Shown here piece after piece: positions 13,074-25,208 of a DNA stretch of 35,195 nt. The stretch comes from a virus. The notes under the pieces were generated by a model. The model worked only from the letters and a program-made list of their open reading frames with translations, was not told the DNA's origin and made no database searches. The stretch is taken from IMG/VR virus record IMGVR_UViG_3300025155_000021, positions 1 to 35,195 of that record; one strand, 5' to 3'. The stretch's first letter is position 1; every line of letters begins with the position of its first letter. Both the position numbers and the translations under genes were made by a program.

Positions 13074-13635
13074 ATGGTTTAATTGTTCTCCTCTGGTCCT
13101 TGATTGACCTCTTGTGAGCCCAGTGTCTTCCCTTACGGCACATGTCATGATTGTTGTCTGTGAGTGTTCCAAGCCATAAGTGTTTTGGATTTACGCAGGC
13201 GGGGTTGTCACATTTGTGAAGCACATTAAATCCATAAGGAATTGGGCCAAAACAGAAAATCCATGAATACCGGTGCGATAGAATAATCTTATTCCCGTTC
13301 AAACCAAAACAACCGTATCCCTTGGGATTTTTATAGGCTATCCAATTCCAACACTCGCTTTCCTCTTCGCCCTTTTTCACCTTTATCCAAAATCTTGATT
13401 CAATGGAACAGCGATTCATCATGTTATGTCCAGTGATAAACTGCTTATTTCTTCCGTTTATGACTGTTGTTTTTCCTCCGCAACCGCATTCACATAGAGT
13501 AGGAGTTGGTTGTCTGAATTTTACCTTTTGTTGGTGGCCACACAGGAAGCGCTTCTCCTGTCCTTTTATACCGCCCCGTTTGTCAGTGTATTTATAAACG
13601 CCAGTTTCCCCGCCGCATCCGCATTCGCACTTCAT
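13060..13635 (-). CDS. HNH homing-type endonuclease with zinc knuckles
   Basis: The 191-residue product starts with two related zinc knuckles, CECGCGGETGVYKY...FLCGHQQK and CECGCGGKTTVINGRNKQFITGHN, then has an HNH_3-type nuclease: ESECWNWIAYKNPKGYGCFGL, HRYSWIFCFGPIPYGFNVLHKCDNPACVNPKHLWLGTLTDN. The HNH_3 core is known from free-standing and intron-encoded homing enzymes. I chose the ATG at 13635 because it shares ATGA with the ribbon-helix-helix gene; the frame is open to 13758, but that part overlaps the upstream gene. The gene is clearly AT-richer than its neighbours, so it is a likely recent arrival. Confidence 0.85.
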   Translation of the reverse strand: MKCECGCGGETGVYKYTDKRGGIKGQEKRFLCGHQQKVKFRQPTPTLCECGCGGKTTVINGRNKQFITGHNMMNRCSIESRFWIKVKKGEEESECWNWIAYKNPKGYGCFGLNGNKIILSHRYSWIFCFGPIPYGFNVLHKCDNPACVNPKHLWLGTLTDNNHDMCRKGRHWAHKRSIKDQRRTIKPYATL

Positions 13636-13811
13636 GCCCCCGCTTCCTTCCTCTCCACTTCGCGGAGGATGACATTTCTCATCCACACGCTGATGTGTAA
13701 ATCCTGTTTGAGTGCGGCTCGGCAGACGGATTCGAACTCTCTGTCCGACAGGTAACATTGGGCGCTGTTCCTACGCTTCGTTGCAGGGTCGAGGAACTGT
13801 CGGCGGCCCAT
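13632..13811 (-). CDS. Ribbon-helix-helix-like small protein, 59 aa
   Basis: The product starts MGRRQFLDPATKRRNSAQCY and continues LSDREFESVCRAALKQDLHISVWMRNVILREVERK. One strand after a basic arm and two helices, the second with S-V-W-M-R-N-V-I-L-R-E, match a MobC/Arc-like ribbon-helix-helix. The ATG at 13811 follows the repressor stop by one base, so the two are co-translated. It may be a second regulator of the switch. Confidence 0.65.
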   Translation of the reverse strand: MGRRQFLDPATKRRNSAQCYLSDREFESVCRAALKQDLHISVWMRNVILREVERKEAGA

Positions 13812-13812
13812 G

Positions 13813-14028
13813 TCAGGCGGCCGGAGCCTTGCCGTTCTGTTCTGTGACAAGATCCTGCACCCCGACGATTCCCTCCGTGGCCCGTATGATCTTGGCGATG
13901 TTCGTCCCGTCGGGAATGACATCGGGTTCGTCGAGTAGTCGGTACACCGTGGAGAGAGGCACGCCGGAAAGCTCCGCGAAGTCTTTCCGGGTGAGATTGA
14001 GTTTTCCGAGATAGGCGGATAGTTTCAT
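13813..14028 (-). CDS. Small HTH repressor (Cro/CI-like)
   Basis: The 71-residue product is a bare helix-turn-helix protein: MKLSAYLGKLNLTRKDFAELSGVPLSTVYRLLDEP is an XRE-type HTH with the recognition helix PLSTVYRLL. It has no CI-type cleavage domain. The ATG at 14028 lies seven bases after a TATGAT -10 box, so its mRNA would be leaderless, as with lambda cI from PRM. A TTG at 14067 is in frame but lies within the promoter -35. The gene heads a leftward operon with a ribbon-helix-helix protein, HNH nuclease, zinc protein and methyltransferase. It most likely controls the divergent promoters beside it. Confidence 0.8.
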   Translation of the reverse strand: MKLSAYLGKLNLTRKDFAELSGVPLSTVYRLLDEPDVIPDGTNIAKIIRATEGIVGVQDLVTEQNGKAPAA

Positions 14029-14034
14029 GGCGGC

Positions 14035-14064
14035 ATCATACCATTGGCGGAATTTCTCTGTCAA
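14035..14064 (-). promoter_or_regulatory. Strong sigma70-type promoter of the repressor gene
   Basis: On the minus strand TTGACA (14059-14064, perfect) is followed by an 18-base spacer and TATGAT (14035-14040, five of six). The ATG of the repressor starts seven bases after the -10, so the transcript probably begins at or next to the start codon. Confidence 0.75.
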
Positions 14065-14096
14065 CAAGAAAATAATGCTTGCAATCTGATTCCGCC
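14046..14096. promoter_or_regulatory. Operator-like inverted ATTCCGCC arms in the divergent promoters
   Basis: GGCGGAAT (14046-14053) and ATTCCGCC (14089-14096) are exact inverted copies. Each lies in the spacer of one of the two divergent promoters, four to five bases after the -35, in the same orientation relative to its promoter. They are probable binding sites for the repressor encoded at 13813-14028. Confidence 0.5.
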
Positions 14097-14109
14097 CGTG
14101 GAATACTAT
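14079..14109 (+). promoter_or_regulatory. Rightward promoter candidate
   Basis: TTGCAA (14079-14084) and TACTAT (14104-14109) are 19 bases apart; an alternative -10 AATACT gives 17. It faces the long rightward operon and contains one ATTCCGCC arm. The match to consensus is moderate; the divergent layout is the main support. Confidence 0.45.
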
Positions 14110-14116
14110 CCCCAGG

Positions 14117-14245
14117 TTGATCGAACTGGGCTACGGCCCGACGTGGTGCCGGGAGATCGTTCGCAAGCTGCGGATTGCGTCAGGGATCGACGGATCAGGT
14201 GGCGGGGCAAGCCCGGATGCAGTAAGGGATTCGATCTTTGACTGA
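14117..14245 (+). CDS. Possible small first gene of the rightward operon, 42 aa
   Basis: A TTG at 14117 opens a frame with coding-like composition: LIELGYGPTWCREIVRKLRIASG, then SPDAVRDSIFD. It ends one base into the tRNA. The start lies eight bases after the -10 TACTAT and has no ribosome binding site, so it would need leaderless translation from TTG. It occupies the place of cro in a lambdoid map, but no HTH is clear. It may also be non-coding. Confidence 0.3.
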   Translation: MIELGYGPTWCREIVRKLRIASGIDGSGGGASPDAVRDSIFD

Positions 14246-14321
14246 CTCGGGTGGCGGAATGGCATACGCGGGCGGCTTAAACCCGCCTTACATGAGGGTT
14301 CGACTCCCTCCCCGAGTACCA
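14245..14321 (+). tRNA. tRNA with UAA anticodon (Leu-like D arm, short variable loop)
   Basis: The full cloverleaf can be drawn: acceptor ACTCGGG/CCCGAGT with A73 and encoded CCA, D stem GCG/CGC with GG in the loop, anticodon stem GGCGG/CCGCC with loop CTTAAAC, and T arm GAGGG/CCCTC with loop TTCGACT. The anticodon is UAA, reading the leucine codon UUA, and the TGGCGGAATGG D region and A73 are leucine-like. The variable loop is only TTACAT (six bases), whereas bacterial leucine tRNAs have a long arm. It is thus either a minimised phage tRNA-Leu or a tRNA of uncertain charging. It sits at the head of the rightward operon and could help decode rare UUA codons. Confidence 0.85.
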
Positions 14322-14324
14322 GAA

Positions 14325-14532
14325 GGGGCGGCGCGGCCCCGGCGCACCGGGGATCAATCCAATGGCATGGGGCACCCCATCGGAGCGACTGCCCGGGTAG
14401 GTATCCAATCCTGCCGCCGCCCCGCACCACTCTCGCGCTCCGCAAGGTCGACGCGAGATGGCTACCGAGGGCGCGAAACCCTTGGGCAGGGAAGGATGGC
14501 GTGACAACGCTTGGCCATCACCCTCGGTAGCC
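14325..14532 (+). ncRNA. Highly structured untranslated RNA region after the tRNA
   Basis: Three strong closing stems follow one another. GGGGCGGCG (14325-14333) pairs with CGCCGCCCC (14415-14423) and encloses hairpins CCCCGG/CCGGGG (14337-14352) and ATGGG/CCCAT (14367-14380). TCTCGCG (14431-14437) pairs with CGCGAGA (14452-14458). GGCTACCGAGGG (14460-14471) pairs perfectly over 12 bp with CCCTCGGTAGCC (14521-14532) and encloses GATGGC/GCCATC (14495-14519). No good ORF with a ribosome binding site lies inside. It is followed after ten bases by the AAGGAGG of the next gene. It may be an independent small RNA processed from the tRNA transcript, or a structured leader. I do not recognise a known RNA family. 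Confidence 0.6.
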
Positions 14533-14553
14533 GCCCAAATTAAGGAGGAAAAC

Positions 14554-14823
14554 ATGGACAAGAAAGGGTTTGAGGATCTTCGCAGGGGATATGAAGTCGC
14601 AAAGAAACTGGAACGGAATATCGACAACACGCGGCAGATCGTGGACGGCATTCGCAGACGGCAGGCGAAGGGAACATCGGATTATGAAGTCTCGTTCAGG
14701 CGCAAGGCGGACGGCTACAACAGCTCCATCTACGTGACCATCCCCGAGCACGTTGTCGCCGCAATGGTACCTGGACTCAAGATCGCGCTGGACAATATGC
14801 GCGAAGAATTCAAGGCGCTGTAG
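14554..14823 (+). CDS. Hypothetical phage protein, 89 aa
   Basis: A perfect TAAGGAGG leader precedes the ATG. The N-terminal half is a charged helix (KGFEDLRRGYEVAKKLERNIDNTRQIVDGI). The C-terminal half has two strands and a helix (DYEVSFRRKADGYNSSIYVTIPEHVVAAMVPGLKIALDNMREEF). No family is recognised. It is the first clear protein gene after the structured RNA and may be controlled by it. The frame extends to an ATG at 14458, but that would translate the RNA stems. Confidence 0.7.
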   Translation: MDKKGFEDLRRGYEVAKKLERNIDNTRQIVDGIRRRQAKGTSDYEVSFRRKADGYNSSIYVTIPEHVVAAMVPGLKIALDNMREEFKAL

Positions 14824-14832
14824 GAGACCCCA

Positions 14833-14997
14833 ATGACCTGCACCGGAGTCTGCCGCTGCCACTCGTGCCCGGATTGCGAGCCGGATGAGCATCGTGCCTC
14901 CCGGATGCCCGATCACTTGCCGACCGTCGATCCTTTGTTCCTCGACGCGATCACCGATCCCGCACCGGAGGATATCAAGGAGAAGGAGGGGAAATGA
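14833..14997 (+). CDS. Small Cys-rich protein, 54 aa
   Basis: The product starts MTCTGVCRCHSCPDCEPDEH, a zinc knuckle with up to five Cys residues, then an acidic tail ending KEKEGK. Its TGA overlaps the ATG of the next gene. GGAGACC lies six bases before the start. The function is unknown. Confidence 0.55.
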   Translation: MTCTGVCRCHSCPDCEPDEHRASRMPDHLPTVDPLFLDAITDPAPEDIKEKEGK

Positions 14998-15260
14998 GTC
15001 ACACGCCGGGGCCGTGGAAATTAGAGCACGACTGGCGAGAACAGCCGGGAGCGATCATCATCCTGAGTGCCGATAATCAGATAGTGGCCGACGCATGGGC
15101 ACCCCGCATCGAGAGGGTCGCCAACGCCCGCCTCATCGCCGCCGCGCCGGAACTGCTGGAGGCGCTAAAAAGCGCGGTGGCAAGGCTCGACGGGCATGAA
15201 GGCCCCGATGACAACGCGGATCTCCGCGCAATCATCGCCAAAGCGGAGGGCCGCCCATGA
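14994..15260 (+). CDS. Phage protein of the SHTPGPW...NARLIAAAPELLEAL family
   Basis: The 88-residue product opens MSHTPGPWKLEHDW and carries VANARLIAAAPELLEALKSAV. This combination marks a small protein found in a great many tailed phages; its function is unknown. The ending (LRAIIAKAEGR) is the usual one. It is coupled to both neighbours by ATGA overlaps. Confidence 0.8.
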   Translation: MSHTPGPWKLEHDWREQPGAIIILSADNQIVADAWAPRIERVANARLIAAAPELLEALKSAVARLDGHEGPDDNADLRAIIAKAEGRP

Positions 15261-15574
15261 AACTCGGGATCACTTTCGGCGCACTCGCTCCGCGCATCGA
15301 GGAACAACTCCCGGAGTCTGTTAAAACGAAGGGAGGGGCTATGACGCACCCGTACATCACCGAAGAGGATAGCAAGCGCATCGAGAAAGATTTCACGTAC
15401 CACCCGCCGAAGCCCGACCAAGTGCCCCGGTACAACCTAATCCGGGATCGCGCCCGGACGTTCGCATTCCGGATCGTGGAGAATTGCCCGCCGTCCCGCG
15501 AGCGGTCGCTTGCGTTGACGCACTTGGAGGAGGCCGTGATGTGGAGTAATGCTGCGATCAGTAGAAACGAGTAA
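15257..15574 (+). CDS. Acb2/Tad1-like domain protein (probable cyclic-nucleotide sponge)
   Basis: The C-terminal 70 residues read FTYHPPKPDQVPRYNLIRDRARTFAFRIVENCPPSRERSLALTHLEEAVMWSNAAISR. This is the pattern of the Acb2/Tad1 hairpin domain: the H-P-P-x-x-x-Q turn, the S-R-E-x-S-L-A-L-T-x-L-E-E-A helix and the final W-x-N-A-A-I. Characterised members bind the signal molecules of CBASS and Thoeris immune systems. An ATG at 15341 with a GGGAGG site is the likely start of the domain alone. The longer frame from 15257 adds 28 residues (MKLGITFGALAPRIEEQL...) that look like the start of another small phage protein, perhaps a fused remnant. The family call is from recall and needs a profile search. 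Confidence 0.65.
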   Translation: MKLGITFGALAPRIEEQLPESVKTKGGAMTHPYITEEDSKRIEKDFTYHPPKPDQVPRYNLIRDRARTFAFRIVENCPPSRERSLALTHLEEAVMWSNAAISRNE

Positions 15575-15589: not shown

Positions 15590-16102
15590 ATGAAGAAGAT
15601 CGCGCTCGTCACGTCGCTCCACCGCTTGCGGCAGCACAACGCATGCGAAGGCCGCTACGCGCGTCTCGTCTCCAAACTCGGCCCGGAGTGGGGCGACAAG
15701 GACGATATCAATCTGCTGGATATACTTGAGCACAACGGAACTGCCGACTGCCTGTGGGCGCTACGCGCCACGGTGAAGCATCCGGACGGCGACAAGGTGA
15801 TGCGCCTAATGGCCGCCGATTTCGCGGAAGCCGTGCTGCCCATCTTCGAGAAGGAATACCCCAACGATGACCGCCCACGGAAGGCCATCAAGGCGGCGAG
15901 GGACTTTGCGAACGGAAGGATAACCGCTAAGGATCTGACCGCCAGGGACGCCGCCTTGGCCGCCGCCAGGGACGCCGCCTTGGCCGCCGCCAGGGACGCA
16001 GGGGACGCCGCCTGGGGCGCCGCCGCAGGGGCCGCCACAGGGGCCGCCACAAGGGCCGCCCAAGCGGAGATCATCCGCCAGTACCTAAAGGAGGGCAATT
16101 AA
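15590..16102 (+). CDS. Imm5-like 'putative immunity' domain protein with Ala-rich repeats
   Basis: The 170-residue product starts MKKIALVTSLHRLRQHNACEGRYARL and carries INLLDILEHNGTADCLWALRA and MAADFAEAVLPIFEKEYPNDDRPRKAIKAARDFANGRI. This pattern is widespread in bacteria and phages and is labelled a putative immunity-protein domain; its function in phages is unknown. Residues 117-160 are repeats of A-A-x-D-A-A-L-A and G-A-A-x-G-A-A, encoded by near-identical GCCGCC-rich units (about 15950-16060), a likely place for copy-number change. It overlaps the next gene by one base. Confidence 0.7.
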   Translation: MKKIALVTSLHRLRQHNACEGRYARLVSKLGPEWGDKDDINLLDILEHNGTADCLWALRATVKHPDGDKVMRLMAADFAEAVLPIFEKEYPNDDRPRKAIKAARDFANGRITAKDLTARDAALAAARDAALAAARDAGDAAWGAAAGAATGAATRAAQAEIIRQYLKEGN

Positions 16103-16702: not shown

Positions 16703-17457
16703 AAGAAAAAAATGCCTGCGCCGATGGCGTCGAATGGTTTCAGCGCAACTTCCCCGCAGGCGGCGGATACCAAGCCGTCCTTGACGCGCTAGCCCACGAA
16801 AACCTGTCGTCGTGGGGATCGTGGCTGTTGTCTACCGCCGGTCCTGCCGGTACTGTCCTGAAAATCAATGGCGACTATGAGGCGCATTTTGGCCTGTACT
16901 TCGCGGGCCGAGTTGAAATTTCGGAATCCATAAAAGTCGCCGGGCATTTTTTGGCCGGTTCGGGCATCAAGGCCGGTTCGGGCATCAAGGCCGGTTCGGG
17001 CATCAAGGCCGGTTCGGGCATCGAGGCCGGTTCGGGCATCAAGGCCGGTGAGGGCATCGAGGCCGGTGAGGGCATCGAGGCCGGTGAGGGCATCGAGGCC
17101 GGTGAGGGCATCGAGGCCGGTTGGGGCATCGAGGCCGGTGAGGGCATCGAGGCCGGTTGGGGCATCGAGGCCGGTTGGGACATCGAGGCCGGTGAGGGCA
17201 TCGAGGCCGGTGAGGGCATCGAGGCCGGTTGGGGCATCAAGGCCGGTGAGGGCATCGAGGCCGGTGAGGGCATCGAGGCCGGTGAGGGCATCGAGGCCGG
17301 TTCGGGCATCAAGGCCGGTGAGGGCATCAAGGCCGGTGAGGGCTACGGCATTTTCGCAGGCGTCCGAATCAAAATTTCAAACTGGTCAAAACACGCCCTG
17401 GTTGTTGCCAAAAAGAAACCGACGAATCTCATCTCCGGGGAGTGGAAGGAGAAGTAG
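16678..17457 (+). CDS. Gly-rich hexapeptide-repeat solenoid protein
   Basis: The 259-residue product has an N-terminal domain of about 92 residues ([21 protein letters not shown], then [21 protein letters not shown]). This is followed by 22 units of A-G-x-G-I-E/K in which x is Ser, Glu or Trp, and a C-terminal strand-rich end ([24 protein letters not shown]). With I in the inward position and G-x-G turns, the repeats fit a parallel beta-helix, perhaps left-handed as in hexapeptide proteins. The ATG at 16678 follows GGGAGGAAGAAGGGAA. The role is unknown; a rod-like binding surface is the most the sequence supports. Confidence 0.75.
16954..17349 (+). repeat. 18-bp tandem repeat array, 22 units
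   Basis: The unit is GCCGGTnnnGGCATCrAG, in phase with the reading frame. The variable codon is TCG, GAG or TGG, and one unit has GAC in place of the second Gly codon. The last unit is diverged. The reverse strand and another forward frame are also open, an effect of the 18-bp period. Confidence 0.95.
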
Positions 17458-24154: not shown

Positions 24155-24994
24155 TCAGTTTAGCAACGAGGCGATCTCCTCCACCGACCACACGTGATCC
24201 GATACCCCCGCTTCCATCGCGGGTGTAACCCTCAACGTCTGATGGATTCGCGCAAAGTTGTAGTACATGAAATGCAGGCTCACGGCATGGCTCAGGTTCT
24301 CCACCTTTTTCGAGAAAGCATTCGTTAGCCGCGTGAATCGGCGCATGCTCATCCGCATGGTAAGATTGTTCCGTTCCACATAGCTGGTCGATATGTATTT
24401 CGGATCGGGTTCTCCGTTGATCTTGGCAACTCGCGTTCCTGTGCATTCTGCGGGGCTATATTTGGTGTCAGGATTTTTATTGCTGTTCTCGCTTCCGTAC
24501 ATCTTGACCAGCATCGCGTAATCGACGTTCCCGGAGAAGGAGTTTTCCACGGCATCAACATATTTTCGGTAGCCGTCTGATGTCAGTTGGATTCGGTGGG
24601 CAAGTCTTCCAGCGAGGTTATTTATGAACTCAGCAGCATGCTCAGCGGTCCGGCGGCCAATCTTCCAACAAGGGACCAGTTTCGTATCAGCGCAAATCGC
24701 CGTGAAGGTCCATACGTCACCGAACCCAAACTGATCCTCGTATTTTTCAGGGACATTCCTTCCCTTCGCGTAACAGAAGCTCCATACCTCATCGACCTGG
24801 ACGCGCTTGCAGTTCAGGTTGTGGAAGGTTTTATCCTGGTACTCCGCGCATGCCTTGCCAAGATCGGCAAGGAGCTTGAGCACCGTGCCCTTGGCCGCGC
24901 CCGTCATGCGGGACGTGGCGCGGATCGAGTTCCCCTCTACCAAGGCGGCTACGATTTGCGCCCTCTGCTTCGTGCTCAGCCTATTCATCTCCAT
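24155..24994 (-). CDS. IS1-family transposase
   Basis: The 279-residue product starts with an HTH domain (STKQRAQIVAALVEGNSIRATSRMTGAAKGTVLKLLADL). The catalytic core has D68 in VQVDEVWSF, D140 in LTSDGYRKYVDAVE and E207 in SYVERNNLTMRMSMRRFTRLTNAFSKK, the IS1-type DDE triad. The C-terminus, HFMYYNFARIHQTLRVTPAMEAGV, is also typical. The gene is intact in one frame, unlike classic IS1 with its frameshift. The nearby promoter carries a palindrome, so expression is probably repressed. Confidence 0.88.
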   Translation of the reverse strand: MEMNRLSTKQRAQIVAALVEGNSIRATSRMTGAAKGTVLKLLADLGKACAEYQDKTFHNLNCKRVQVDEVWSFCYAKGRNVPEKYEDQFGFGDVWTFTAICADTKLVPCWKIGRRTAEHAAEFINNLAGRLAHRIQLTSDGYRKYVDAVENSFSGNVDYAMLVKMYGSENSNKNPDTKYSPAECTGTRVAKINGEPDPKYISTSYVERNNLTMRMSMRRFTRLTNAFSKKVENLSHAVSLHFMYYNFARIHQTLRVTPAMEAGVSDHVWSVEEIASLLN

Positions 24995-25017
24995 CCCCCC
25001 TCAAGCCTGATGTATTC

Positions 25018-25046
25018 ATCATGCTTGAGCGGTCAAGCAATGTCAA
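25018..25046 (-). promoter_or_regulatory. Transposase promoter with embedded palindromic operator
   Basis: On the minus strand TTGACA (25041-25046) is followed by 17 bases and CATGAT (25018-25023). The spacer holds the perfect palindrome GCTTGACCGCTCAAGC (25023-25038), placed where a bound protein would block RNA polymerase. A half copy, GCTTGAGCGG on the plus strand, lies upstream at 25070-25079. Confidence 0.65.
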
Positions 25047-25124
25047 CAAGTATTTTCTGCCCCCGCTATGCTTGAGCGGAAATGCATCTTGACACGGGAT
25101 ACAACCGTGGGTTATAAATAAAGG

Positions 25125-25208
25125 TGCCCGTGGTGGGACTCGAACCCACAAGGCCGGCCAGCCAGCGATTTTAAAGACCGCCGTGTTTGCCAGTTTCACC
25201 ACACGGGC
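25125..25208 (-). tRNA. tRNA-Leu-like gene with UUA anticodon (ochre-suppressor candidate)
   Basis: The cloverleaf is complete: acceptor GCCCGTG/CACGGGC with A73, D stem GTG/CAC with GG in the loop, anticodon stem GCGGT/ATCGC (one G-U pair), loop CTTTAAA, a 15-base variable arm, and T stem GTGGG/CCCAC with loop TTCGAGT. Position counting puts T-T-A at 34-36, so the anticodon UUA reads the stop codon UAA. The long variable arm and A73 are those of tRNA-Leu, whose synthetase does not need the anticodon. CC but not the final A of CCA is encoded. It lies inside the transposon between the transposase and a cargo gene. Shifting the loop to give UAA would break the anticodon stem. Confidence 0.8.

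Follow-up and report, generated by a model that had tools for sequence, protein, structure and literature searches.

A candidate structured mRNA leader beside the tRNA-Leu gene of a siphovirus

INTRODUCTION

Between a phage tRNA gene and the protein-coding gene that follows it lies a GC-rich stretch of 208 nt with extensive potential for base pairing, which raises the question of whether this stretch is an RNA with a function of its own, the untranslated leader of the next gene, or simply a spacer. The locus is found within a window of 35,195 nt, by which we mean the whole stretch of viral DNA that was analyzed (positions 1 to 35,195 of IMG/VR record IMGVR_UViG_3300025155_000021). The original prediction, made from the sequence alone, held that the stretch carries three perfect stems, lacks a credible open reading frame, cannot be matched to the GOLLD and ROOL RNAs of phages, and represents either a new small RNA or a structured leader for the gene beginning at position 14554 (gene 14554). 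Herein, we weigh these proposals against several other readings of the region.

RESULTS

Genomic setting of the structured region

The window covers part of the genome of a siphovirus, which is ~49 kb in length. A contig of 49,360 bases (3300025326_000054) is 100% identical to the entire window and encodes terminase, portal, head, and tape-measure genes, and a 127-base piece of the window maps at both of its ends. Two other contigs carry the structured region with an identical sequence, which makes an assembly error unlikely.

The structured region has a G+C content of 70% and is located in the interval between a divergent repressor-like gene and the early genes, where it occupies 208 of the ~230 nt that separate the tRNA from gene 14554 (Table 1). 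In the rightward direction, the order is tRNA-Leu(UAA), the structured stretch, a Shine-Dalgarno (SD) site, gene 14554, a PHROG-1273 protein, and an Acb2/Tad1-type protein. Thus, the region does immediately follow a phage tRNA, as originally described. The product of gene 14554 has no match in Pfam or PHROG.

Table 1. Features of the locus, with positions given in window coordinates
Feature	Position	Strand	Basis
Divergent Cro/CI-like helix-turn-helix (HTH) gene, 71 aa from ATG 14028	13813..14028	-	Pfam HTH_3, E 5e-5
tRNA-Leu(UAA) gene, encoded CCA, short class I-type variable loop	14245..14321	+	ARAGORN; Rfam tRNA, 54.5 bits
Domain 1, 9-bp closing stem around four small hairpins, cloverleaf-like	14325..14423	+	Predicted fold; z -1.64
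Hairpin 2, perfect outer stem of 7 bp	14431..14458	+	z -1.65
Domain 3, three-way junction with perfect 12-bp closing stem (14460-14471/14521-14532)	14459..14533	+	z -4.16
Shine-Dalgarno site AAGGAGG, 5 nt upstream of ATG 14554	14542..14548	+	Sequence
Gene 14554, 89 aa, first gene past the structured region	14554..14823	+	Positive codon score

Several neighboring features merit description in their own right. The HTH gene is preceded by an extended -10 promoter on the minus strand (TTGACA-18-TATGAT, 14064-14035; 11/12 in the promoter scan) that ends 6 nt upstream of its ATG (14064-14028). From the position of this promoter, transcription likely starts at or near ATG 14028, and the arrangement suggests a leaderless, repressor-like transcript. 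Shortly past the structured region, positions 15257-15574 (+) encode an Acb2/Tad1 hairpin-domain protein (Pfam PF24729, E 1e-19), which is likely an anti-CBASS/anti-Thoeris sponge. This is followed at 15590-16102 (+) by an Imm5-like protein whose C-terminal tandem repeat is alanine-rich (ARDAALA).

Bacterial tRNA-Leu is normally of class II. The tRNA-Leu(UAA) of the window carries the same short type of variable loop as T5-like Vibrio phages, and it shares 79.5% identity with the class I-type tRNA-Leu genes of those phages. A second tRNA at 25123-25208 (-; Rfam, 56.6 bits) is a class II (Leu-like) tRNA whose anticodon, UUA, would decode UAA, the ochre stop codon. No obvious recoded gene was found among the 27 open reading frames examined, which end with TGA (15), TAA (8), or TAG (4). 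Directly downstream of the ochre tRNA is an IS1-family-like transposase (24155-24994, -; PF03400), and the gap together with the start of the transposase gene (24820-25122) folds with a z-score of -4.9, possibly as the end of an IS1-family-like element.

One of three predicted domains is stronger than expected by chance

The perfect stems of 9 bp (14325-14333/14415-14423), 7 bp (14431-14437/14452-14458), and 12 bp are present where they were first noticed, and the predicted minimum-energy fold of 14325-14532 (-106.3 kcal/mol) holds all three domains and essentially all of the stem pairs. Domain 3 is predicted to enclose two hairpins joined by junction strands of 7, 3, and 1 nt, and its pairing probability is ~1.0 in every context folded (starts at 14113, 14245, 14325, and 14429). 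Two candidate pairings between domains (14381-14387/14436-14442 and 14403-14415/14485-14497) were rejected on their ensemble probability of 0.0. Domain 3 ends 9 nt before the SD site, and the pairing probabilities (14543-14549) leave the SD site unpaired with the three domains. The ATG of gene 14554 likewise lies outside domain 3 and is unpaired with it. When 14325-14600 is folded, a portion of the SD site is predicted to pair with the beginning of gene 14554 itself.

Fold strength was compared with 200 dinucleotide shuffles. The whole 208 nt has a z-score of -2.79, and 2 of the 200 shuffles folded equally well. This was true of 15/200 shuffles for domain 1 and 13/200 for hairpin 2, but of 0/200 for domain 3. 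The impression that the fold is notable therefore holds for domain 3 and not for the other two domains, whose z-scores are about -1.6.

These values bear directly on the simplest rival explanation, which is that the region is a very GC-rich spacer with no dedicated function whose stems arose mostly by chance. Perfect 9-bp stems with gaps of up to 90 nt are common in the window (22 versus 11.4 expected from shuffles), such that stems 1 and 2 are ordinary for a sequence of 70% G+C. The 12-bp stem of domain 3 is the only one in the window with a gap of up to 60 nt (0.11 expected), although at least one such stem also arose in 9 of 100 shuffled windows. Likewise, 25 of the 4,684 75-nt windows of the 35-kb sequence reach z ≤ -4, as does domain 3, several of them lying in tandem repeats or coding genes, and ~15 of 676 sliding 208-nt windows (both strands) score below the structured region. 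For domain 3, the minus strand gives a fold at least as strong as that of the plus strand (z -5.3 versus -4.0), and therefore the fold does not reveal which strand is transcribed. The domain 3 stem is thus mildly to clearly unusual, in a manner that gives no indication of strand. Against an origin by chance stand the result that domain 3 outperforms all 200 shuffles and its place in a compact phage genome, where it occupies a non-coding interval directly 5′ of a ribosome-binding site. On balance, we consider the absence of any dedicated function somewhat unlikely.

No part of the window folds with lower z-scores than the minus strand of a tandem repeat array at 16953-17343, where they reach -7.4.

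Coding potential and transcription signals

With codon scores trained on 14 genes of the window, each of the six frames across 14325-14532 scores below zero, whereas gene 14554 scores above it. The claim that the region lacks a credible open reading frame is largely upheld by these scores, with the reservation that one frame, open from ATG 14458 through position 14823, traverses domain 3 in the reading frame of gene 14554. Perhaps, then, gene 14554 begins at ATG 14458, such that domain 3 contributes an extension of 32 residues to the N terminus of its product. The codon score of the added segment (14458-14553) falls between those of true and false frames and is ambiguous: scores this low occur in 17% of true chunks, and scores this high occur in 9% of false chunks. 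However, its value of -0.05 compares poorly with the 0.16 to 0.48 observed within gene 14554 proper, and no strong SD sequence precedes ATG 14458, whereas a strong one precedes ATG 14554. No protein family match was obtained for the longer frame, nor for an antisense frame or a frame running through the tRNA. We regard an N-terminal extension as improbable.

A scan of the plus strand from 13600 to 15000 revealed no sigma-70 promoter-like site, and its only terminator-like site (13816-13833) lies neither close to the structured region nor between the tRNA and gene 14554. A weak promoter-like site at 14079-14107, which was read by eye, matches at 8/12 positions and falls below the scan threshold. 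The lack of promoter and terminator consensus sequences from the tRNA to gene 14554 argues against a separate small-RNA gene. Of the two roles originally offered, the leader of gene 14554 is consequently the better supported, as is also indicated by the short distance between domain 3 and the SD site.

Comparison with known RNA families

At Rfam gathering thresholds, only tRNA is found within the window. The Rfam search that the original prediction had proposed also yielded no family at a meaningful score in the structured region when permissive settings were used, the best match being tRNA-Sec over domain 1 (18.9 bits against a cut-off of 47, E 0.43). We also considered hammerhead ribozymes, whose core consensus is CUGANGA / GAAA / NUH. 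Although domain 3 has similar junction strand lengths, its junctions read CGCGAAA/AAG/A rather than CUGANGA/GAA/H, and this candidate was rejected given that the core residues are absent and there is no Rfam match. Like GOLLD and ROOL RNAs, the region is phage-encoded and adjoins a tRNA gene, but it is unrelated to them, in line with the original failure to match it, with no Rfam match to either at the gathering threshold or at E ≤ 5. It is also far shorter, considering that many members of GOLLD are longer than 800 nt (PMC12286853).

The position of the region near the start of a presumed early transcript invites comparison with the put RNAs of phage HK022. Antitermination by put RNAs acts through the zinc-binding domain of the RNA polymerase beta′ subunit. 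By analogy, the region might fold as nascent RNA near the early transcript start and bind RNA polymerase, such that terminators are read through. As with putL and putR, a folded RNA would reside in an early-transcript leader alongside a repressor-like gene, and the junction is ~350 nt downstream of the weak 14079-14107 site, compared with ~270 nt between PR and putR (PMC9378689). Domain 3, at 75 nt, is also close to the ~70 nt of HK022 put RNA. However, put RNAs consist of two tandem stem-loops (PMC9378689), whereas domain 3 is predicted to be a single three-way junction, and no sequence relationship was found. A put-like function therefore seems quite unlikely to us. Domain 3, possibly in combination with domain 1, might instead belong to a new class of cis- or trans-acting phage RNAs, for instance as a protein-independent antiterminator whose architecture differs from that of put and which shares the early leader with a tRNA, but we consider this very improbable.

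Least probable of all, and rejected on its score, is the reading of domain 1 as a decayed or atypical second tRNA adjoining tRNA-Leu: the weak tRNA-Sec match arises because the helices of domain 1 stand in cloverleaf-like order, with a 9-bp closing stem, a 6-bp D-like arm with a tetraloop, a T-arm-like hairpin (GGTAGG-TATCCAAT-CCTGCC) adjoining the 3′ strand of the closing stem, and a CCA nearby, but the score is far under the family cut-off, a 5-bp/7-nt anticodon arm is lacking, ~14 unpaired nt follow the D-like arm, and ARAGORN returns only wrap-around or opposite-strand artifacts for domain 1 even at relaxed thresholds.

Search for relatives

No diverged relative of the region was found in pattern scans of IMG/VR or in phages, plasmids, ~1.85 Mb of related-phage loci, and 299 bacterial genomes; the only matches retained were 100%-identical contigs of the same virus. 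Two covariance models (R1 and R2) were run on the ~1.85 Mb of loci, the records, and the genomes, with R1 alone applied to the 299 genomes; each was built from one sequence, such that distant relatives could escape them. Exact DNA patterns representing the tRNA, a loop of domain 1, the 12-bp stem, and domain 3 likewise recovered no outside relative. Weak matches in two loci (L138 and L134) and an exact 18-mer in a third (L198) were dismissed as chance matches inside protein-coding genes, and none of the remaining weak outside matches had an E value better than ~0.2 in the search from which it came.

Protein queries gave a similar outcome. The gene 14554 protein and the HTH protein recovered only the same virus from IMG/VR, the gene 14554 protein had no match in GTDB genomes or phage records, and none of the ~160 loci carrying relatives of the methyltransferase and helicase includes the structured region. 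These searches thus yielded no diverged homologue with which covariation could be assessed. Together with the result that two of the three stems are within chance for a GC-rich sequence, this leaves the proposal of a new RNA family unsupported.

DISCUSSION

The reading that we favor, albeit tentatively and at somewhat less than an even chance, is that the region is an untranslated, structured leader that is co-transcribed with the tRNA and whose 3′ three-way junction would stabilize or insulate the mRNA without pairing with the SD site. Several lines of evidence argue for such a leader: domain 3 is far more stable than its shuffles and is predicted to pair almost fully in every context folded, the SD and ATG lie beyond it and are unpaired with it, no sigma-70 promoter-like or terminator-like site was found on the plus strand from the tRNA to gene 14554, and codon scores are negative across the region but positive in gene 14554. 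The case is weakened because no relative was found from which conservation or covariation could be judged, because the minus strand of domain 3 folds at least as well as the plus strand, and because z-scores of comparable depth are also found within some coding genes of the window. The strong stem of domain 3 may have no role.

If the favored reading is correct, a rightward early transcript would start at some point in the interval that separates the divergent repressor-like gene from the tRNA and would run through tRNA-Leu, the structured stretch, gene 14554, and later genes. Maturation of the tRNA would cut both of its ends, yielding an mRNA that begins at or within the structured stretch. 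We infer that the three-way junction, with its GC-rich 12-bp closing stem, might then keep the 5′ end of this mRNA double-stranded and slow its decay, and might also insulate the SD site from the very GC-rich sequence upstream.

There are precedents for such an arrangement. The ompA-type stabilizers are structured 5′ leaders of bacterial mRNAs. In phage T4, the gene 32 mRNA undergoes RNase E processing 71 nt upstream of its start codon (PMC3014915). The region described herein would resemble these leaders in that an untranslated structure would be situated upstream of a strong ribosome-binding site on a phage transcript, but it differs in that a three-way junction is predicted where those leaders have simple hairpins or a pseudoknot.

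At present, the region represents a single uncorroborated structure from one virus. If it acted on RNA polymerase, it would provide a second architecture for protein-free antitermination. If instead it works as a leader, it would be another case of phage RNA structure in an early control region beside a tRNA gene.
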